Shown here: positions 14,610 through 27,006 of the stretch, in pieces
Layout of the letters: each line of letters opens with the position of its first letter
Position numbering within the stretch: the first letter of the stretch is position 1
Source: Candidatus Peregrinibacteria bacterium
Lineage (GTDB): Bacteria > Patescibacteriota > Gracilibacteria > UBA1369 > UBA12473
NCBI GenBank assembly: GCA_018659585.1
Contig: JABJMC010000041.1
Span: forward strand, 1 to 44,218
Direction of reading: 5' to 3'
Length of the DNA stretch: 44,218 nucleotides
Position numbers and translations under genes: made by a program
The notes under the pieces: generated by a model
What the model was told of the DNA's origin: nothing
The model's input: only the letters and a program-made list of their open reading frames with translations
Database searches by the model: none

Positions 14610-15133
14610 CCAAATTTTACTTAATCGTAGCTATGGATGAGAACCGCGGCATTGGCAAAGATGGTGATCTGGCGTGGCATTTGTCCGAAGACCTCAAATA
14701 TTTTGCTCGGGTTACCAAAAAAACCAAAGACCCCAACAAGCAAAATGCCGTGATTATGGGCCGCAAAACCTGGGAATCTATTCCTGATAAATACCGCCCT
14801 TTAAAAGATCGTCTTAATATTGTGCTTTCTCGAAATGCCGATTATATGGTGGTGCCAGACATCAAATTAGCCCGTACTTTTGAAGATGCACTCGAAGTGG
14901 CAGAAGAGAACAAAGTTGAAACAGTTTTTGTAATTGGTGGGGCTTATGTTTTTGAGCAAGCCTTAAACCGCCCAGAGTGCCAAGGCGTGTATTTGACCGA
15001 AATCCTGAAAGGCTTTGATTGTGATGCCCATTTAGCGCCTATTGATAAAAAAAGCTTTGAAAGAGTAGAAGAATCCGAAATCCACGAAGAAAAAGGCATT
15101 AAATTTCGTTTTGTAGTTTATCGCACCAAGTAA
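14606..15133 (+). CDS. folA: Dihydrofolate reductase FolA
   Basis: NADPH-dependent reduction of dihydrofolate. The conserved N-terminus '[20 protein letters not shown]' carries the Met20-loop region, followed by the acidic active-site residue in 'SEDLKYF' (Asp ~29), '[12 protein letters not shown]', 'LNIVLSRN' and the NADPH motif '[13 protein letters not shown]'. At 175 aa it is a standard single-domain DHFR. The Leu-Ala-Trp in place of Leu-Pro-Trp before the active-site helix is a mild variation. Translation is coupled to thyA by a 4-nt overlap; the LCP gene follows after 5 nt. Confidence 0.97.
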
Positions 15134-15138
15134 ATCTC

Positions 15139-16146
15139 ATGAAAAAAGCATTCCACATCATTGTTATGAGTTGCCTTGCTGTCGGATTTTTAGTCCTCCA
15201 TGCCAGTGGGTTAATTTTGTACGAACCCCAAATTGACCCCGAAACCGGTGAAAAAGTAATTTCCATGGCCACACCAGCTCCAAAAGCCAATCTTTTAGCC
15301 AGCTTATTGGATTTAACTTCTAGTGATGAACCCACCGAAGACTTTAATATTTTGGTAGCTGGTAAACACGGCGCCAATGTCGACACTATTATTTTTGCCA
15401 ATGTAGATTTAGACGAAGAAACAGTTCATCTAATCAGCATCCCGCGCGACCTTCATCACAAAAATCGCAAAATTAACAGTGTTTACGCGGATTATGGCAT
15501 GGAAGAAATGACCAAGCGCATCTCTGAAATCAGCGGTCAAACAATCGACCAGTACATCCTGGTTGATATGTATGTGTTCAAAGATTTAGTGGATTTAATT
15601 AATGGGATCGATATTACTTTAGAAGAAGATTTAATTGACCCTTCTTACAAAATTATTGATGAAAACGGCGAAGAAACCACTCTTAATTATCCAGCCGGAG
15701 ATTATCATTTAAACGGAACTGAGGCTCTTCGAATTGCTCGTTCCCGCCATACAACTTCGGATTATTCTCGGGCGGCTCGACAACACATTATTCTCGAAGG
15801 AATTCGCTCCAAAGCCGCCACTTTGGGCTTAGGTGATGCGGTGACTGTTTTACAAATTATGCAGACTGTTCTTGCTAATACCGAGACTAATATTGGCCTT
15901 AACAAGGCTTTTAGTTATTACCTTAAATACAGTGGATTTGAGTTAGATTATGGTTATGTTTTAAGTACTGGGAATGCCTTAGATATGGTGCTTCTTCCGG
16001 TTGATTACGAAACTTCTATGCAAGTTGAGGTGTGTGAAGAAGTTGAGGGTGAGGAGGTTTGTGAAATGAAATACGCGATTTACACGCTCCAACCACGTGA
16101 GGATAATTGGGATTACATTAAATGGTATTTTCAGGGTATAATCTAG
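15139..16146 (+). CDS. LytR-CpsA-Psr (LCP) family cell-wall ligase
   Basis: Membrane-anchored phosphotransferase that attaches polymers to peptidoglycan. One N-terminal anchor helix (residues ~7-28) precedes an extracytoplasmic LCP domain. Its signatures are 'DTIIFANVDLDEETVHLISIP' with the RDL motif (~88-110), 'INSVYADYG', and 'ALRIARSRHTTSDYSRAARQ' (~197-216), which holds the conserved Arg and Asp residues for pyrophosphate binding. A short acidic Cys pair (CEEVEGEEVC) lies near the C-terminus. It sits between folA (5 nt) and rnhA (3 nt) in one operon, an unusual mix of nucleotide and envelope functions. Confidence 0.92.
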   Translation: MKKAFHIIVMSCLAVGFLVLHASGLILYEPQIDPETGEKVISMATPAPKANLLASLLDLTSSDEPTEDFNILVAGKHGANVDTIIFANVDLDEETVHLISIPRDLHHKNRKINSVYADYGMEEMTKRISEISGQTIDQYILVDMYVFKDLVDLINGIDITLEEDLIDPSYKIIDENGEETTLNYPAGDYHLNGTEALRIARSRHTTSDYSRAARQHIILEGIRSKAATLGLGDAVTVLQIMQTVLANTETNIGLNKAFSYYLKYSGFELDYGYVLSTGNALDMVLLPVDYETSMQVEVCEEVEGEEVCEMKYAIYTLQPREDNWDYIKWYFQGII

Positions 16147-16149
16147 CGC

Positions 16150-16929
16150 GTGAAACCTCTTATTATTTACACTGACGGCAGTTGTTTAGGAAATCCCGGG
16201 GCCGGAGGATGGGCCGCGATTATTCAAGATGATCATGCGGAGGTGATTTTGTCTGGAAATGAAACTAAGACCACCAATAATCGAATGGAAATGATGGCCA
16301 TTATTCAAGCTTTAAAGTGGGTCCGCGAGCACTATCAAACAGATCGAAAAACCAAACTTTATTCAGATTCTAGTTTAATTATTAATACGTTGAATGACGG
16401 TTGGAAAAGAAAAGCTAATACCGATCTCTGGGCTGATTTAGACACGACAAATGATGGTCTAAACGTTGAGTGGAACTGGGTTAAAGGGCACGCTAATAAC
16501 CCGTTAAATGAGCGTTGTGATCAATTAGCCGTTAAAGAATCCGAAAAAGCACAAAAAGCCACTTCTGATTCCGATGATTCCGAAGTTTCGAGTAAATCAA
16601 TGCGCGTGGCTTCTCATTCCGAGGGGCAGTTTTTATGTGCTGCTTGTGGGACTTCTTCCCCTGGATTACTAGGTTATATGGAAGAATCTGACATGATTCG
16701 TGTGGATTGTCCGCATTGTGGACGCTATATTAAATTTGCTTCTCCTACTCCGGAGAATTTGGAAAGAGCCAAAAAAAGACCTTTAATCAGTAAAGAACAG
16801 ATTGCCGCCCTGCAAGCCAAAGCCGAAGCAGATGGCAAAACAATTTCTGATCGCGAGCTCAAACAACTCAAAAAAATGACTCAAGCCGAGGCTGAAGTAA
16901 GAATCGAAGCTGAACAAACACTGTTTTAA
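16150..16929 (+). CDS. rnhA: Ribonuclease HI with C-terminal zinc-ribbon extension
   Basis: Degrades RNA in RNA-DNA hybrids. The catalytic residues are D9 (YTDGSC), E47 (NNRMEMM), D73 (LYSDSS) and D124 (ERCDQLA), with H114 in 'VKGHANN'. The RNase H domain ends near residue 130. A Ser-rich linker follows, then a four-Cys knuckle, C163-x2-C166 and C187-x2-C190, which probably binds zinc, and a charged helical tail. The start is GTG at 16150, 3 nt after the LCP stop; no better start exists. The extra zinc domain is not part of standard RnhA and may target nucleic acid. Confidence 0.93.
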   Translation: MKPLIIYTDGSCLGNPGAGGWAAIIQDDHAEVILSGNETKTTNNRMEMMAIIQALKWVREHYQTDRKTKLYSDSSLIINTLNDGWKRKANTDLWADLDTTNDGLNVEWNWVKGHANNPLNERCDQLAVKESEKAQKATSDSDDSEVSSKSMRVASHSEGQFLCAACGTSSPGLLGYMEESDMIRVDCPHCGRYIKFASPTPENLERAKKRPLISKEQIAALQAKAEADGKTISDRELKQLKKMTQAEAEVRIEAEQTLF

Positions 16930-16954
16930 GGAGCCGCTTTAGGACGCCAACCAA

Positions 16955-17275
16955 CTAAACAAGGGCGTCGAGCTTTTTAGCAAGCTCTTCTTTGGGTACA
17001 AAACCAACTGCTTGGTCTACCACTTCCCCTCCTTTTACAAAAATAATAGTTGGAATACTCATTACACCGTATTTACCAGCGGTCGCGCCAGCTTCATCCA
17101 CGTTAACTTTTCCAATTTTTACTTTTCCTTCGTATTCGCCGGCTAATTCTTCGAGAACTGGAGCTAACATCTTACAAGGCCCACACCAATCCGCATAAAA
17201 ATCTACTAAAACCGGGATATCTGATTTAAGGACCTCTTCTTCAAAATTGTCATCTGTAAAGTGGGCAGCTGCCAT
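16955..17275 (-). CDS. trxA: Thioredoxin
   Basis: Small disulfide reductase of 106 aa. The active site WCGPCK has C31 and C34; the cis-Pro is in 'SIPTIIF', and the fold-typical Asp is in 'VLVDFYADW'. No signal peptide, so cytosolic. A minus-strand TATAAT at plus 17308-17313 lies about 33 nt upstream of the ATG; its -35 (CTTTCT) is weak. It is convergent with the thyA operon, with a 25-nt gap. Confidence 0.97.
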   Translation of the reverse strand: MAAAHFTDDNFEEEVLKSDIPVLVDFYADWCGPCKMLAPVLEELAGEYEGKVKIGKVNVDEAGATAGKYGVMSIPTIIFVKGGEVVDQAVGFVPKEELAKKLDALV

Positions 17276-17357
17276 AATAAATTTGGGTTAAAAATAAGCA
17301 TAATTATTATAGTGAAAGGCCCGCGAAAAGAAAGAGAAATTTTCCAGGGGGTAGCTA

Positions 17358-17386
17358 TTGCATGATAAGATTAAATATGTTATAAT
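17358..17386 (+). promoter_or_regulatory. Promoter of the 538-aa surface protein
   Basis: TTGCAT (17358-17363), 17-nt spacer, TATAAT (17381-17386), 37 nt before the ATG at 17424. Confidence 0.7.
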
Positions 17387-17423
17387 TTAATAATGGTTTT
17401 TTAATATCTAAACAAAAATAAAC

Positions 17424-19040
17424 ATGGAAAACCAGCCAAAACATAAACGTTTAAAGGTGTTGCTAGCAGTTCTCGGAATATCACTAGTCGCCTTAGGCAC
17501 ATCTCTTGCTTCCAGTGGAAGCCTTTTTCAGGGGACATTGAGTGTTGGTGATGATCCTGGTTATATCACAGTTGAACCAGCTGATCGTGTGTTAGATGAT
17601 ATTTCAATAATTGCTGGTTTAGATTCAGATACGGACCCTCTTTTGGTAGGGAATTTTAAGGTCTACGCTAATGAGGAATCTTTCGTTATTGACGAAATAG
17701 CCCTTAATTTTGATGGTACGGATACCAATTCTATTGATTCAGTGATTTTAAAATATCCAACTGATTTCTCTAGTCACGCGTTTGACGGTGAGTCAGAAAG
17801 CATAATTATAGATGATAAAGTCGGATTCGCAAATTTAGATATTGCTATCCCAGCATCAATTGACAGTGAAAGGAGTAGGATTATTTTGATTTATGCGGTA
17901 ACCAATGAGGTGGGCTCTGGTGCCGATTCAGGCGATGTTGTTCAATTTAGCTTTGATTATGATTACGGATTTAAGGCGATTGGACAAGATTCTGGCCAAA
18001 CAATTACTCCAGACAATAGCGTTACAGATTATGGTGTAACAGCTGATATTTTGGGGCCGGAAATTACTTTATATGAGGCCGGAAAAATTACAATTATTGA
18101 ACCAGATAGAGCTTTAGAGGGTAGAGATGTAACATCTTTAGATGATGAAATATTGGTGGGACGCTTTAATATTGCGGCTGCCAGAGAAGATTTTGTTATA
18201 GAAGAAATGCAATTTGTTTATTCCGAAGAAGGAGAAGATCTTAATATTGACGTGGCTGATATGATTTTAAGATATCCAACTTCATTTGATGATCCAACTT
18301 TAGATGGGGAAAGCACTGTAACGTTTGATGGTCGTGCTAATTTTGATAGCTTAAATATCGCTGTTCCAAAGACTCAACGTGGAGTGCTCGTAGAGCTTTA
18401 CATAGATATTCAAAGTGCTCCAGGAGAAGGAGATATTGTTTTTGAATATGATTATGATGATGGGTTTAGTGCTGTTGGTCAGGAAAGTGGAACTACAGTA
18501 ACTGATGGCTCTTCAGCTGATCTTTACGGGACTACCGCTAATATCTCTGGCCCCACAATTCATGTTATGGAAGGCGCTATGGTGTTATCTACAAACACAA
18601 AAAACACTAATTGTCCTACAGAGCTTCTAGCAGCTGGAACAGAAGTAGCAGTTTACTGTTTTAAGGCACAAGTTTATGGGCATGGTAGCCTTTATGCTTT
18701 TAAGCTTGATGTAGATCCTTCTTATCTCGAAGATGGAACTAATATTAACGAATTAGGAGAAACTGATGGTTGGGTAATTTATGATGGAACCGATTTAGGA
18801 ACCCCGCTTGGTTACGGTACATATGCTAGCAATGAAGTTGAAATAACCCTTGATTCAAATATAGGACTAGAAGATGAGTGGAAAGTATTTGTAGTAAAAG
18901 CCCCAGTTAATTTCGATTCTATGCGAAGTGTTGCCGCCACCTTATCTACACGTTTAGCAGAAGTTAAAATTGATAATACTTGGAATGATTCTAATGATCT
19001 AGATTCACTCCCAACTGATTACTTAGAGCTTGCTGAATAA
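17424..19040 (+). CDS. Exported repeat protein, probably cell surface
   Basis: Residues ~10-30 form a signal peptide or anchor ('LLAVLGISLVALGTSLASS'). The rest is acidic and beta-rich. Two tandem domains of ~165 residues share blocks: 'EPADRVL'/'EPDRALE', 'LLVGNFKVYA'/'ILVGRFNIAA', 'FVIDEIALNF'/'FVIEEMQFVY', 'LKYPTDF'/'LRYPTSF', 'DYGFKAIGQ'/'DDGFSAVGQ' and 'VTADILGP'/'TTANISGP'. A shorter third part (from ~385) has two Cys. There is no sorting tail. It lacks enzymatic motifs and is likely a structural or S-layer-like surface protein. It has its own promoter and a strong terminator. Confidence 0.8.
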   Translation: MENQPKHKRLKVLLAVLGISLVALGTSLASSGSLFQGTLSVGDDPGYITVEPADRVLDDISIIAGLDSDTDPLLVGNFKVYANEESFVIDEIALNFDGTDTNSIDSVILKYPTDFSSHAFDGESESIIIDDKVGFANLDIAIPASIDSERSRIILIYAVTNEVGSGADSGDVVQFSFDYDYGFKAIGQDSGQTITPDNSVTDYGVTADILGPEITLYEAGKITIIEPDRALEGRDVTSLDDEILVGRFNIAAAREDFVIEEMQFVYSEEGEDLNIDVADMILRYPTSFDDPTLDGESTVTFDGRANFDSLNIAVPKTQRGVLVELYIDIQSAPGEGDIVFEYDYDDGFSAVGQESGTTVTDGSSADLYGTTANISGPTIHVMEGAMVLSTNTKNTNCPTELLAAGTEVAVYCFKAQVYGHGSLYAFKLDVDPSYLEDGTNINELGETDGWVIYDGTDLGTPLGYGTYASNEVEITLDSNIGLEDEWKVFVVKAPVNFDSMRSVAATLSTRLAEVKIDNTWNDSNDLDSLPTDYLELAE

Positions 19041-22100: not shown

Positions 22101-22464
22101 CGATGATGACCCTGATGTTTCTCAAAAATATTTAGGTTACGGCTATGAAATGCGCGCTCCCAACCTAGTCCAGGCTGTCGAAGACACCGCCGGCCTAGTC
22201 GTCACTTACGAGGACGAAATCATCAAAACTCCATACTTTAGCTCTACTGACGGCACCACTACCCGCAGCGCCGAAGAAGTTTGGGGATGGACTTTTACGC
22301 CTTATTTGCAAAGCGTTTCCGATGAATTATGCACAGTCGGATACTTTAGTGGACACGGGGTTGGACTCTCGGGCTGTGGCGCTACTGCCGCCGCTGAACA
22401 GGGGAGTACTTACGAAGAAATCATCAAATATTATTATCAGGGGGTGGAAATACAGGTTCGCTAA
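19144..22464 (+). CDS. PGRP amidase - Ig-like - SpoIID fusion, exported
   Basis: 1106-aa exported cell-wall enzyme. A signal peptide or anchor covers residues ~1-30. A PGRP/Amidase_2 domain (~205-440) shows 'SRSEWGADESWR', the zinc ligand region 'IIHHTAG' (~292), 'GWGDIGYNYIID', 'YEGRAGG' and 'GHRDFGSTLCPG'. Two or three Ig-like/NBR1-like domains follow (~455-790; 'LELKNIGTETWDS', 'ITLKNTGNVDWMQD', 'IDLENVGYLTWEN'). The SpoIID domain is C-terminal (~845-1106): 'LPLEMYLRGIAEATNSEP' with the catalytic Glu near 947, 'ILARTYARWY' and 'GHGVGLSGCGATAAAEQG'. One polypeptide would thus remove stem peptides and cleave the denuded glycan, jobs that SpoIIP and SpoIID share in sporulating bacteria. Confidence 0.92.
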   Translation: MRRTLARIVLVAVLIGMISSVEMDFAQMKAPEFAGGGVRADSIFVPDTIELPARLNVNAFDFTPAYENETQFLSPILTPDFAFDAVGVSWEEVRPTSTNINFQVRFQHQNNQKWGDWNILHPDPDDNPDSLTASTIDEIVSTVRSRAIQYKVILESVSSDVTPQVKNVNFHYIDGAYNDTQDDAQGTQKLGQSPDAELKKLLFADGSFNIISRSEWGADESWRTNDFFGYEPDESIEEVETETEDMSPDKEPTVQELYPEEFELLDTITQDKDDNDLYWPQEYAKNVDKIIIHHTAGINGAENADASIRGIYYYHSVRKGWGDIGYNYIIDTNGNIYEGRAGGERVVAGHARGNNTGSIGIAVMGNYEEESLSYEALESLAYLVQDKAELYNINVDGFSKFRGESTPNVGGHRDFGSTLCPGKNLYSMLPTIRDIIDSNLLDYETQLILEGSDDPYAFANTNNYEALVMDPEDSSTFTLELKNIGTETWDSETYLVANRNTNAETLIHLVKSDSNSKSIAFLNETIVSPGETGTFTIQAEAMMRGGFESFSITPIFNGTKKTSHYLTLPVYVAAPLLTYDVSALTQDKDRVEANEIITGKITLKNTGNVDWMQDGLFPMTLSGMTLSEEVIEPGQYATFNYSFEAPETPGTHTEYFTPVIEGGDSFEGNSIAVSILVYDKSIQAQFIDVSSDDQFEPGEQKSAWIDLENVGYLTWENSGDDSFNMGVIHHPDIRVTTPTLRSTSVEPGATGRIQFTITAPETPGNYIIYLRPRLGKQNLVQRPFYFEFTVADTTITTNESVTESTDTDIVTTTASSDLDQEEIRIKLSYDTTTFGDPIITANGGFDVYRGDTLFLDLDAGDEVEVRVKPENYQIVYDAYAWVVDEEPRFVPRDEDTVLEITNYENRPSWNTALNDNQFRGTLEVRNIDDELTVINELPLEMYLRGIAEATNSEPTEKIRTMTILARTYARWYMESEEKFPGMPYNLDDDPDVSQKYLGYGYEMRAPNLVQAVEDTAGLVVTYEDEIIKTPYFSSTDGTTTRSAEEVWGWTFTPYLQSVSDELCTVGYFSGHGVGLSGCGATAAAEQGSTYEEIIKYYYQGVEIQVR

Positions 22465-22468
22465 AACA

Positions 22469-22527
22469 GTTCATTTTCTTTTAATCTTTTGTTTAAATTT
22501 TCGTAATGTCTTTTTGCTAACGTGAAA
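22469..22527 (+). repeat. Leader repeat, copy 1
   Basis: About 59 nt. It shares TTCATTTTC, TTTAATCTTTTGTTTAA, TTTTCGTAAT and GCTAACGTGAAA with copies at 24669 and 26939. It begins 5 nt after the SpoIID stop and ends exactly where the paired stem of the tRNA-like RNA begins. It contains no normal -35/-10 pair. Confidence 0.85.
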
Positions 22528-23301: not shown

Positions 23302-23330
23302 TTGACAAATTCTAGATATCATGTAATATT
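23302..23330 (+). promoter_or_regulatory. Promoter for the cassette A leader RNA
   Basis: TTGACA (23302-23307), then TAATAT at 23324-23329 (16-nt spacer) or the extended form TGTAATATT (17). It begins right after the tsaB stop and points into the structured leader. Confidence 0.75.
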
Positions 23331-23336
23331 ATTTGC

Positions 23337-23444
23337 CTTACTTCGTTTTCTAAACGAGTAAGTGTGCATTCCCTCTCATTTGTTACTACAAAACGGTTTT
23401 CAGATGGCGAAGGAATGCCAATGCTCATTGAAAACCTGCACGAA
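23337..23444 (+). ncRNA. Structured leader RNA of cassette A, possible pseudoknot
   Basis: A hairpin CTTACTTCGTTT/AAACGAGTAAG at 23337-23362. Then two interleaved stems: GCATTCC (23366-23372) with GGAATGC (23412-23418), and GGTTTTCA (23395-23402) with TGAAAACC (23429-23436). The second 3' strand is also the left arm of the cassette A inverted repeat, so it can pair either upstream (local) or with the right arm 970 nt downstream. This is the geometry of a switch. Pairings are read by eye. Confidence 0.6.
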
Positions 23445-23450
23445 AATATT

Positions 23451-23517
23451 CTTACTAGCTAGCAGTAAGGGATGAAGCTCAGGGAGGGGGTTTCATCTCT
23501 TATTCCTAGCTGGTAAG
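23451..23517 (+). other. Long two-part hairpin inside cassette A
   Basis: Outer stem CTTACTAGCTAG/CTAGCTGGTAAG (12 pairs, one wobble), inner stem AAGGGATGAA/TTCATCTCTT (10 pairs, one wobble), internal loop CAGT/ATTC, and a purine-rich apical loop GCTCAGGGAGGGGGT. It follows the left arm by 6 nt, where cassette B also has a hairpin. Confidence 0.8.
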
Positions 23518-23637
23518 TTCGAATTATCAACAAACCGGTTTTTGCCGGCCTTTCCGCGTGTTTGCGGCGAGGTCGGTTTCGACAGAAGCGCAACTTAGGC
23601 CCCTTCGGGTTTGGGTTCACCGAGAGGAGATTCTCAC

Positions 23638-24288
23638 ATGCGCTGTACCACACTGGCCTACCTGGTGCTGGCCACACCTCTGATCTCCAGCCTGACCGGC
23701 TGTGAGTGCCTCCGCAACTGCCAGATACCGACCACGGAGTGTGACGACACCTGCGATGACCCCACCGTGGACCTGGATGGCATGGAGCTGTACGACTGCA
23801 CCGAGGTCGAGAAGGCGGGCTACGCCTACGACCCGGAGAGCGGCCACTACATCTTCGACGTCCTCATCAACACCTCCGAGTGCTTCGTGAAGGACGGTAT
23901 GAAGGTTGCCCTGTGGGGCATGTCGAACTCCGCCGTCTACGACTACGAGGTGACCCAGGACAACGCCTGGGTGTACGCCAACGGTGGAACCACCTACGTC
24001 GTGGCCGGTATCAACTTCCGCTCGGAGTGGTACTACGCCCCGGCCTGGGGCTTCGACGCCGCCACCATCGCGCCCTACATCGCCCAGCTCAACCAGGTGA
24101 ATGGCTTCCACGACTTCGCCCTGTGGTGCCCGGACTCCGACGCCCTGTCCTGCGCCGTCACCGTCTGCACCAAGTCGGCCTACACCGGCTACGAGTGCCT
24201 CCGCGAGTGCGTGTACATGGACGGCTACCGCGTCTGCAGCGACGAGGAAGGCTACGAGGAGGCGCTCGAGGAACTGGGTATCGAGTAG
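23638..24288 (+). CDS. GC-rich secreted lipoprotein of cassette A
   Basis: 216 aa. A signal peptide (residues 1-20) ends in the lipobox SLTGC, so the mature protein starts at C21 and is lipid-anchored. About ten cysteines in the mature part ('CECLRNC', 'CDDTC', 'DCTEV', 'WCPD', 'LSCAVTVC', 'ECLREC') suggest disulfides. The middle is beta-rich with many Tyr/Trp. I chose ATG 23638 because GAGGAGA sits 6 nt upstream; a TTG start 27 nt earlier has no signal. It aligns with the cassette B protein over ~130 residues (DCT[EQ]V, NG-T, W..P, I-PY, GFHDF/GIHEF, SC). Codon choice (GCC, CTG, GTC) is unlike every neighbour. Function unknown. Confidence 0.8.
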   Translation: MRCTTLAYLVLATPLISSLTGCECLRNCQIPTTECDDTCDDPTVDLDGMELYDCTEVEKAGYAYDPESGHYIFDVLINTSECFVKDGMKVALWGMSNSAVYDYEVTQDNAWVYANGGTTYVVAGINFRSEWYYAPAWGFDAATIAPYIAQLNQVNGFHDFALWCPDSDALSCAVTVCTKSAYTGYECLRECVYMDGYRVCSDEEGYEEALEELGIE

Positions 24289-24414
24289 GCGGTCTGGTCA
24301 ACCGTCTGCCACGCGCCGTCCATTGGGGAACCCCTGGGGCGGCCTGGTCAGCTGTCCTTTGGGGTCCCCCTGGGGACAGTGTTTGTTGTCATTTACAACT
24401 TCGTGCAGGTTTTC

Positions 24415-24668
24415 ACCGACACTTCTAAGAGAGCCACCACAAAAGGTGGTATTTTTGTGGTCTAATTTTCAGGTTGCAATTCACTCTTAAGAGTGAATCT
24501 TTCTCTGTAAAATCGTCAAAAATGCACCATAGTTGTCAAGACATTGCATTATTATTAAATCAAGTTGTACGTGACCGTATGCGGTGAATTTGCAGGTTAA
24601 AAAATGGCAAAACCGCCCTTTCAACACATCCTTTCAACAAACCCCATTCCCCGTTCACAAAAATTTAA
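24415..24668. other. Inter-cassette noncoding region with hairpins
   Basis: No gene is visible. It holds the hairpin ACCACAAAA/TTTTGTGGT (24436-24461), which competes with CCACC/GGTGG; a perfect 20-nt palindrome centred on CTTAAG (24479-24498); and CCGTATGCGGTGAA (24575-24588), resembling part of group II intron domain V, with a GCGGT/ACCGC pairing (24581-24585 with 24612-24616). AT-rich like the host. Confidence 0.6.
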
Positions 24669-24723
24669 TTTTCATTTCATCTTTTTGTTAAGTTTTCGTA
24701 ATGGGTGAACTGCTAACGTGAAA
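24669..24723 (+). repeat. Leader repeat, copy 2
   Basis: Shares TTTTCATTT, TTTTTGTTAAG, TTTTCGTAAT and GCTAACGTGAAA with copies 1 and 3. The distance from TTTTCGTAAT to the first paired base downstream is 21 nt (20 nt in copy 1). Confidence 0.8.
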
Positions 24724-24814
24724 GCAGGTTTTTTTATGTACGCCAGTTTTCATGGTAGCGAAATATCATCCATCCCATGGCGGACTTGGCGTCAAATGAT
24801 CTTTGAAAGTCTGC
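24724..24814 (+). ncRNA. Structured leader RNA of cassette B
   Basis: A nested fold: outer GCAGGTTTTT (24724-24733) with GAAAGTCTGC (24805-24814, three wobbles), then ACGCCA/TGGCGT (24740-24745 with 24787-24792), then CATGG/CCATG (24751-24755 with 24775-24779). The outer 3' strand is the left arm of the cassette B inverted repeat, so as in cassette A it can pair locally or with the distant right arm. Confidence 0.65.
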
Positions 24815-24823
24815 ACGAATAAC

Positions 24824-24849
24824 CGTGAGGGGGAGGAGTCCCCCTCACG
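24824..24849 (+). other. Perfect 11-bp hairpin with GGAG loop
   Basis: CGTGAGGGGGA - GGAG - TCCCCCTCACG. The loop is Shine-Dalgarno-like. CTCCCCC at 24853-24859 can instead pair with GGGGGAG (24829-24835), giving an alternative fold. It sits 5 nt inside the left arm, matching the hairpin of cassette A. Confidence 0.85.
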
Positions 24850-25016
24850 AGCTCCCCCACAAGGTTTTCACGAAAATAAGTTTCGCAGAACTTCGCTTTT
24901 TCACATTTGGGGCCCACAAGACCCAAACGTTCAAAAGCTCGTCGTGTGCTTAACTTTTTTCGTGAAGTCTTAATAGTAGGTAGAACCGGCCAACCTCACA
25001 ACAAAGGAGAACTAAC

Positions 25017-25523
25017 ATGGCCAACTTGCGCGCGCGCGTTTTCTTCCTCAGCTTGCTGCTTGGCAGCATCTTCGGGAACCTGGGCTGTACCGAGTACGGA
25101 CTCCAGGCTCTCTACGGCATGCCCGAGGGCATGCACCTCGACTCCTACCGGGATTGCACCCAGGTCATTGGCTCGCGGTACGGGTACGTGGATCACACTT
25201 TCAGCGTGGTCATGATGTACTCGGGCTGCCTGGCCGACAACTACCAGGCCTATCTCCTCATCGAACACGAGTTCGAGGAGATGGACATGCAGTGGACCAC
25301 CGCGGATTACGTCACCACCAATGGCGACACGATCACCGTGGACGCGGTCTACTACAGCCTGGATTTCTGGTACAACCCCGTGGACATCGAGATGCAGGTG
25401 ATCCCGTACGTCGGGAACACCGCCTACGGCATCCACGAGTTCTGGACTGACTGCTCCGACGACGACGCCGGCAGCTGTCCGGTGGAGTACAACGGAGCCG
25501 TGGGTCCCGGAGATCTGCTCTAG
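25017..25523 (+). CDS. GC-rich secreted lipoprotein of cassette B
   Basis: 168 aa. The signal peptide (residues ~1-23) ends in the lipobox GNLGC, so lipidation at C24 is expected. The mature part has 'DCTQV', 'YSGCLAD', 'DCSDDDAGSC' and a beta-rich centre. AAAGGAG ends 8 nt before the ATG, a much stronger ribosome site than most genes here. It is a divergent paralogue of the cassette A protein: same order of DCT, NG-T, W..P, I-PY, G-H-F and C-D-DA-SC blocks, but ~50 residues shorter and without the C-terminal Cys-rich tail. GC content and codons contrast with the host. Role unknown; a surface or secreted binding protein is possible. Confidence 0.8.
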   Translation: MANLRARVFFLSLLLGSIFGNLGCTEYGLQALYGMPEGMHLDSYRDCTQVIGSRYGYVDHTFSVVMMYSGCLADNYQAYLLIEHEFEEMDMQWTTADYVTTNGDTITVDAVYYSLDFWYNPVDIEMQVIPYVGNTAYGIHEFWTDCSDDDAGSCPVEYNGAVGPGDLL

Positions 25524-25648
25524 CAGCAGGTGAGGAACGGCCGATCAGGGGAGTGGTGCGGGGTAAGGGCGCCTTTGTGTGTCCGCCCCCGCCGCTCGTC
25601 CCGTTTATCTCGTGCAGACTTTCTTGAGGTGAATTTAACTCTAATAAT

Positions 25649-25685
25649 GTAGTGACAATGTATTTACAAAGTAATGACAACTATG
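25649..25685 (+). promoter_or_regulatory. Direct-repeat operator and promoter of a TA pair
   Basis: GTAGTGACAATG (25649) and GTAATGACAACTATG (25671) are direct repeats 22 nt apart, two helical turns. TTTACA (25663-25668) and TATCAT (25687-25692) form a possible promoter across them. Autoregulation by the antitoxin is inferred. Confidence 0.5.
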
Positions 25686-25723
25686 GTATCATGGGAGTAA
25701 CAAAATCTTTTAAATCCCATCTC

Positions 25724-26261: not shown

Positions 26262-26935
26262 TGCTCTCCATCGTTTCAACTCCCATCGGCAATCTCGAGG
26301 ATATGACCTTGCGTGCCATCCGAACCTTAAAAGAGGTAGATTTAATTGCTTCTGAGGATACGCGGCACACTGGTCGTCTTCTTAAGCATTTTGAGATCAC
26401 AACGCCCCAAATTAGCTTTCACGCTCATAGTGGTCAGGCTAAGTTAGACAAAATCATAGCCGCGCTTCATGATAATCAGCACGTGGCCTTGGTTTCTGAT
26501 GCTGGAACTCCGGGGATTTCCGATCCTGGATATTTGCTAATTCGTCGTGCCATTGAGGAGGGGATTAAGGTTGAGCCAATTCCTGGGCCCAGCGCCCTTT
26601 TGGCCGCGTTGGTCACGTCTGGTTTACCTATGGATAAGTTTGTTTATTTAGGATTTCTGCCAACAAAAAAGGGCCGAAAAACGCTTCTAGAAGGCTTAAA
26701 AGACGAAAGCCGAACAATTATTTTGTACGAGTCTCCGCATCGCCTTCAAAAAACTCTAAAAAATCTTATGGAGTATGGATTTCAAGATCACCAATTAGTA
26801 ATCGCGCGTGAACTTACCAAACTTCACGAAACTATTTATCGTGGCTTAGTTTCTGAACTCGCCCAAACATTAGAAAATCAGAAGCTTAAAGGAGAAATGG
26901 TCCTAGTTTTGCACAAAAACACCAAAAGTTCATAA
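26261..26935 (+). CDS. rsmI: 16S rRNA 2'-O-methyltransferase RsmI
   Basis: Methylates the ribose of C1402 in 16S rRNA with S-adenosylmethionine. Family blocks: 'VSTPIGNLEDMTLRAIRTL' at the start, 'IASEDTRHTGRLL', 'LVSDAGTPGISDPGY', 'PIPGPSALLAALVTSGLP' and 'GFLPTKKGRK', then 'ILYESPHRLQKTL'. At 224 aa it lacks most of the C-terminal extension of longer RsmI proteins (~280 aa). The ATG shares a base with the toxin's TAA stop, so expression probably depends on the toxin-antitoxin transcript. Confidence 0.96.
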   Translation: MLSIVSTPIGNLEDMTLRAIRTLKEVDLIASEDTRHTGRLLKHFEITTPQISFHAHSGQAKLDKIIAALHDNQHVALVSDAGTPGISDPGYLLIRRAIEEGIKVEPIPGPSALLAALVTSGLPMDKFVYLGFLPTKKGRKTLLEGLKDESRTIILYESPHRLQKTLKNLMEYGFQDHQLVIARELTKLHETIYRGLVSELAQTLENQKLKGEMVLVLHKNTKSS

Positions 26936-26938
26936 AAA

Positions 26939-27006
26939 GTTCATTTTCATTTAATCTTTTGTTTAAGTTTTCGTAATCTCCTTTTGCTACGCTAGTAACG
27001 TCTAAG
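26939..27006 (+). repeat. Leader repeat, copy 3
   Basis: GTTCATTTTCATTTAATC, TTTTGTTTAAGTTTTCG and TAATCTCCTTTTGCTA match copy 1 almost base for base. A 7-nt insertion (CGCTAGT) splits the 3' part, so the following RNA starts 29 nt after TTTTCGTAAT. It begins 3 nt after the rsmI stop. Confidence 0.85.

Follow-up and report, generated by a model that had tools for sequence, protein, structure and literature searches.

Two adjacent GC-rich lipoprotein genes of a Candidatus Peregrinibacteria bacterium, here called units A and B, are each enclosed by an inverted repeat, and the question that this locus raises is whether the repeats are the ends of a mobile DNA or the two strands of an RNA helix. 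A preliminary description, made from the sequence alone, had offered both readings: a cassette that carries a passenger gene and is moved in trans, or an RNA stem that loops out the whole open reading frame (ORF). We analyzed the contig that carries both units (JABJMC010000041.1 of assembly GCA_018659585.1, positions 1 to 44,218 of the forward strand), and this whole stretch of 44,218 nucleotides is referred to as the window. Coordinates given for units A and B are window positions on the (+) strand, and gene starts and promoters were assigned by eye or by consensus. Loci elsewhere are designated by L numbers.

RESULTS

Two lipoprotein genes between perfect inverted repeats

The inverted repeats around the two GC-rich genes are real and are perfect over 16 nt in unit A and 14 nt in unit B. 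The arms of A (23429 to 23444 and 24400 to 24415) are complementary at 16 of 16 positions with a spacing of 955 nt, and those of B (24805 to 24818 and 25610 to 25623) at 14 of 14 positions with a spacing of 791 nt. The AC/GT difference between the arms of A and B does have its counterpart change on the opposite arm, as had been pointed out. Perfect inverted repeats of at least 13 nt and 0.4- to 1.8-kb spacing occur 16 times in ~426 kb of the genome; the one in A exceeds all others in length, and an arm sequence is shared only between A and B. The exact arm motif GAAANNCTGCACGA was found only at the four arm sites of A and B in the 1.41-Mb genome.

Unit A begins with a putative sigma70-type promoter, TTGACA-N16/17-TAATAT (23302 to 23330), which is a consensus match only (10 of 12 positions in a scan), followed by a weak boxA-like site, TGCTCATTGAAA (23422 to 23433), located by homology alignment to the boxA of B. 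The left arm begins at boxA offset +7 and would form the 5' side of a leader-trailer helix; just inside this arm, RNA folding predicts a long stem-loop of about 29 bp (23451 to 23517). The gene for lipoprotein A (216 aa, 23638 to 24288) has the Shine-Dalgarno sequence GAGAGGAG upstream, and the right arm, the putative trailer strand by complementarity and folding, lies just ahead of an intrinsic terminator (24433 to 24462). Unit B has a D1-family interspersed intergenic element (24659 to 24723) that may hold its promoter region; a boxA, TGATCTTTGAAA (24797 to 24808), the first 10 bases of which equal the genome's rRNA boxA TGATCTTTGACA; a left arm starting at boxA offset +8 as the putative 5' helix strand; an 11-bp stem-loop just inside that arm (24824 to 24849); the gene for lipoprotein B (168 aa, 25017 to 25523); and a right arm likewise assigned to the trailer strand by complementarity and folding.

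The preliminary description had also recorded a strong hairpin near each left arm, a strong Shine-Dalgarno sequence for each ORF, ORFs of ~63% GC, and divergent paralogy of the two proteins, and these observations held. The distance from the arm to the hairpin is 7 nt in A (hairpin start at 23451) and 6 nt in B (24824), the Shine-Dalgarno sequences are GAGGAG (A) and AAAGGAG (B), the ORFs measure 63.6% (A) and 60.4% (B) GC, and the proteins are 27% identical across 135 aa (E value of 1e-5). GC3 is 0.92 in A and 0.88 in B versus a mean of 0.35 (standard deviation of 0.09) across a sample of 338 ORFs of this genome. Neither lipoprotein matched a Pfam family, and no relative of either protein was found among genome contigs, viral contigs, plasmids (for A), phages (for B), and ~380 genomes of the phylum; AlphaFold with a two-sequence input gave a pLDDT of 34 for lipoprotein A, and this model was set aside.

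Two other repeats were observed around these units. The D1 element has about 11 clear copies genome-wide, with window copies at 22464 to 22519, 24659 to 24723, and 26934 to 26989, and those at 22464 and 26934 start exactly at a gene's stop codon. A 21-nt inverted repeat (86%) flanks unit B at 24526 to 24546 and 25667 to 25687 and is possibly a RelB operator before relBE.

boxA sites and the pre-16S register

The genome's own rRNA leader has the boxA TGATCTTTGACAGC, unit B has TGATCTTTGAAAGTC at 24797, and the site of unit A, TGCTCATTGAAAACC at 23422, is weaker; the sites of A and B are aligned with each other in a 25-nt leader repeat that is identical at 21 of 25 positions. Using a position weight matrix (PWM) trained solely on the rRNA boxA of other genomes, we ranked 184 leaders. 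The boxA of B, which matches the core at 10 of 10 positions, scored 11.7 and ranked 3rd, and those of L095b, L086, and L096 ranked 6th, 10th, and 11th, respectively. The site of A scored low, at 3.6. Judged by sequence, both units are candidate boxA antitermination leaders, with a strong site in B and a weak one in A.

The pre-16S leader-trailer helix was measured in relatives because the genome's own 16S trailer is absent from the assembly. In seven rRNA operons of the order, this helix comprises 24 to 30 contiguous base pairs (G-U allowed), starts inside or just after boxA at offset +3 to +13, and has its partner strand behind the 16S gene. The arm starts of A (+7) and B (+8) fall within this register. 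The counts of G-U versus A-C were 8 versus 12 in the units and 35 versus 10 in rRNA, an asymmetry that is clear in rRNA but not in the units. We also observed that at the rRNA loci of relatives (L099 and L103-L108) the pre-16S trailer complements boxA itself or its 3' half.

Other GC-rich genes of the genome

The stretches of the genome that we read, about 572 kb in all, contained seven protein genes with a GC3 of at least 0.70 (A, B, L086, L095a, L095b, L096, and L097). Six of these seven have a boxA-like leader site, most of them behind a sigma70-type promoter; L097, which has none, lies closely behind another gene. An eighth GC-rich gene, L146, surfaced through a boxA pattern search that was blind to GC content. 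In RNA folds, the 3' untranslated regions (3'UTRs) of L095a, L095b, L096, and L146 pair with boxA itself; this pairing begins at the stop codon or immediately behind it and lies directly ahead of a terminator. The six GC-rich units besides A and B lie on other contigs, and five of them have a boxA-like leader site; a 400-kb sample from ten other families of the order yielded no GC3-outlier genes. The GC-rich ORFs are more folded than their synonymous shuffles (z of -0.9 to -4.8, with a mean of -0.19 and a standard deviation of 1.19 for ordinary genes), but this excess of structure was rejected as a hallmark of the units since L097, without boxA, is over-structured as well.

Several GC-rich loci have features of their own. 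A leader hairpin, CATTGCAGAGAG ... CTCTCTGTGATGC, stands behind boxA at L086 (14450 to 14680) and L244 (5600 to 5800); it is common to two genera, precedes dissimilar GC-rich membrane-protein genes, and has one stem pair that apparently changed from C-G to U-A. Adjacent GC-rich genes at L095 (8690 to 8785 and 9600 to 9700) have a common conserved structured leader, GGCTGCTATCAGCC ... GGATGGGCG ... TTGTTCCTTTACA. At L131 of the sister genus (14619 to 17600), a GC-rich gene for a MopE-repeat lipoprotein, its reading frame interrupted, follows a structured leader of ~700 nt behind a tRNA gene, with no clear boxA. L097 (2437 to 4509) encodes, without boxA, a GC-rich M23 peptidase/MopE/beta-helix protein that we judge to be Myxococcota-like.

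Leaders are predicted to pair with their own 3'UTRs

When the whole transcripts of A and B were folded freely by partition function, the left arm paired with the right arm with a P of ~1.0 in both units, and when the trailer was omitted, the left arms paired partly with upstream leader sequence. In unconstrained folds of full transcripts, the boxA region paired with the unit's own 3'UTR in six of seven units (A, B, L095a, L095b, L096, and L146), with the stop codon itself inside the pairing in L095a and L096; the exception was L086, in which boxA is present and a convincing trailer helix is absent. When 3'UTRs were swapped among units, the true assignment, with 121 paired positions versus 22 expected, was the best of 5040 permutations. 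Shuffled 3'UTRs did as well in 0 of 25 trials for A, B, L095a, and L096 and 0 of 12 for L095b, in 2 of 25 for L146, and in 8 of 25 for L086. Pairing of a leader with its 3'UTR is by itself not unique to these units, because in 4 of 25 ordinary genes the best leader window had at least 16 of its 28 positions paired with the 3'UTR. The telling point is the link of the pairing with boxA and with the gene's own 3'UTR. The arms of A and B make most sense as RNA, not as transposon ends: of the two options originally offered, the RNA stem stood, given the pairing of the arms, the recurrence of the plan with other arms matched to their own 3'UTRs, and the boxA and pre-16S register. This reading does not require the RNA to be spliced or circularized.

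A native surface-protein gene and a large noncoding RNA

A combined PWM-plus-helix scan of whole stretches showed no enrichment over column-shuffled PWMs and was therefore rejected as a stand-alone detector, so that single hits need other support. The scan did lead to position 1768 of L124 (L124a), where the boxA CCCTTTGACAATATGCCC is followed at an offset of about +8 by a helix of 13 bp (21 bp with a bulge) that encloses an AT-rich secreted or surface-protein gene (GC3 of 0.16), upstream of a WxLIP-domain gene; the transcription unit runs on into downstream genes. Its ortholog in the sister genus, L241, has a 56% identical ORF and the same downstream WxLIP gene, and the leader core, which contains the boxA core, and the trailer GGGCATATTGT are kept while the rest of the 3'UTR is dissimilar. 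Since the core pairs are invariant, this is conservation and not covariation. The boxA pattern was derived in part from the same units that were later counted with it; the PWM from other genomes, L146, and the conservation between L124a and L241 are supports independent of that derivation.

A structured RNA of ~650 nt was observed downstream of a tRNA-Arg gene on another contig of the same genome (L081, contig C37, 8481 to 9145). It has a boxA at its head and a closing 10-bp helix, GACAGTGCGA/TCGCACTGTC, at offset +8. No gene is evident inside it, it has no Rfam match, and it was not found in 58 relatives. From its sequence, we regard it as a putative large noncoding RNA with the same plan of boxA and helix.

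DISCUSSION

We consider it probable that the mRNAs of A and B are carried in a frame of the rRNA type, in which NusB/S10-boxA transcription is combined with a leader-trailer helix that closes behind the gene. Units A and B would then be single-gene transcription units built like pre-16S rRNA. The leader boxA, strong in B and weak in A, would bring NusB-S10 to the RNA polymerase; during transcription of the gene, the boxA-proximal left arm would stay close to the enzyme; and the trailer, on emerging past the stop codon, is predicted to pair with the left arm, leaving the mRNA looped out. In unit A, this helix would close just before the intrinsic terminator. The helix might then mark the ends for mRNA processing or protection or terminate the boxA-modified state, and the trailer could release the boxA complex. 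The genome encodes NusB (PF01029, 102 bits, E value of 3.5e-29), and the Rho RNA-binding domain PF07497 had no match in this 96.7%-complete genome, which makes the classical Rho-blocking role of boxA unlikely. Rho antagonism was for this reason rejected as the purpose of the frame, and processive transcription of structured GC-rich RNA, or the definition of RNA ends, fits better.

The best explanation of the plan seen elsewhere is that the frame also surrounds a native surface-protein gene, a large noncoding RNA, and at least four GC-rich genes besides A and B; these GC-rich genes were probably acquired horizontally. Tentatively, and stopping short of calling it probable, we propose that this lineage of small bacteria uses NusB-boxA and the helix as a general device for selected mRNAs and large noncoding RNA, new GC-rich genes included, with the trailer acting as an anti-boxA that would end the modified state without Rho.

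Two other accounts also place the helix in RNA. The trailer may act as a switch, a variant of the rRNA-type frame in which it pairs with boxA or its adjacent 3' side, displaces NusB-S10, and restores termination and processing. The 3'UTRs of L095a, L095b, L096, and L146, which are predicted to pair with boxA itself directly ahead of a terminator, are consistent with such a switch, as are the rRNA trailers of the order that complement boxA too and the terminator of A directly beyond its trailer; in A and B, however, boxA is covered by the perfect helix only at its 3' end, a clear terminator is lacking in B, and L124a continues into downstream genes, and we regard the switch as possible and rather doubtful. 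That the helices simply close mRNA ends, for stability, RNase III processing, or translational control, with the resemblance to boxA incidental, appears unlikely. The boxes of B, L095b, L086, and L096 rank high among the 184 leaders, the register repeats that of pre-16S, and the boxA core is conserved between L124a and L241, which weighs against coincidence, whereas the strong leader hairpins and terminators, the poor PWM score of the site in A, and the leader-3'UTR pairing in some ordinary genes speak for this account.

Explanations at the level of DNA fare worse. If the arms bounded an invertible segment, or were the terminal inverted repeats of a passenger-gene cassette mobilized in trans, the foreign composition, the paralogy of A and B, and the perfect repeats at the edges would be expected, and the suggested comparison with an insert-free locus did produce one: L044 of the sister genus has tsaB and rsmI with neither unit between them. 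Against this, comparison of the flanks by eye revealed no target-site duplication, the promoter and the boxA core lie outside the arms, the arms of other units are unrelated in sequence, with no ends common to units beyond A and B and no further copies of the arm motif, and no recombinase was seen among the window's ORFs of at least 120 aa. The arm pairs that the preliminary description proposed to look for in relatives did not appear either: in 99 genomes, nearly all matches were scattered singletons, and none were paired at cassette spacing. We therefore judge this option, whose cassette form was the part of the original two-way reading that fell, to be very improbable. An assembly artefact, in which GC-rich fragments of another organism were joined into the contig, is scarcely credible: the composition does change abruptly and the genome is a 49-contig assembly, but the arms of each unit match across its two borders, six more GC-rich units lie on other contigs (five with boxA-like leader sites), and the frame recurs around L124a, a gene of native composition, where it is conserved in a second genome. 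A group I or II intron, a riboswitch, or another known structured RNA was rejected for lack of an Rfam match to the units; an Rfam scan of the window returned only tRNAs at the gathering score, the best weak match reaching 23.7 bits against a cutoff of 49.9. No rRNA match was found in the window, and the helices enclose lipoprotein ORFs instead.

boxA antitermination and leader-trailer helices belong to the textbook picture of rRNA. If the rRNA-type frame is real, some mRNAs would have an rRNA-like life, with processive transcription, looping out, and defined ends. The frame points to a way in which foreign, heavily structured GC-rich genes could be expressed by an AT-rich genome that apparently lacks Rho, it gives NusB-boxA a testable role other than the blocking of Rho, and it predicts a genome-wide signature, namely, a boxA and its complement behind the gene.

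Comparison with known systems

Phage morons are single-gene units with their own promoter and terminator, a deviating composition, and often a surface or lipoprotein gene. Units A and B resemble them as stand-alone single genes of deviating composition, but their neighbors in the window are chromosomal and not phage genes, and morons are not defined by a boxA and a closing helix. MITEs and passenger-gene cassettes have terminal inverted repeats and share with A and B the inverted repeats around a foreign gene; A and B differ in having no target duplication or copy family and in having the promoter and boxA core outside the repeats.

A boxA in the leader of an mRNA has been described for suhB and for CKO_00699 of Citrobacter koseri (PMC5725501). 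As in the units described here, that boxA lies in the 5'UTR of protein genes and implies action of NusB/S10 on mRNA; the part of the source consulted does not mention a trailer helix, and it describes for suhB a boxA that leads to translational repression, followed by Rho-dependent termination, whereas no Rho RNA-binding domain was found here. The preliminary description knew of no described element with this plan. This holds for mRNA, for which the literature searched (preprints and most subscription literature being outside its scope) contained no example with both a boxA and a leader-trailer helix, but not for pre-rRNA, which has the plan. In the published model for pre-16S rRNA, the trailer pairs with boxC on emerging, with the rRNA looped out (PMC10250234). 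The pre-16S leaders of E. coli and others (PMC10250234) have in common with A and B that boxA precedes the 5' strand of a long helix and that the RNA enclosed by the two strands is, or in A and B would be, looped out. In E. coli, boxC lies 18 to 19 nt beyond boxA, whereas the pre-16S trailers of this order are complementary to boxA, either to the site itself or to its 3' half, and the helix overlaps boxA as it does in A and B. The units differ from pre-16S in that they enclose protein-coding mRNA and in that the helices found here are shorter (10 to 22 bp), with an arm sequence that varies from gene to gene. Units A and B would work like an rRNA leader frame, yet they are not an rRNA operon.
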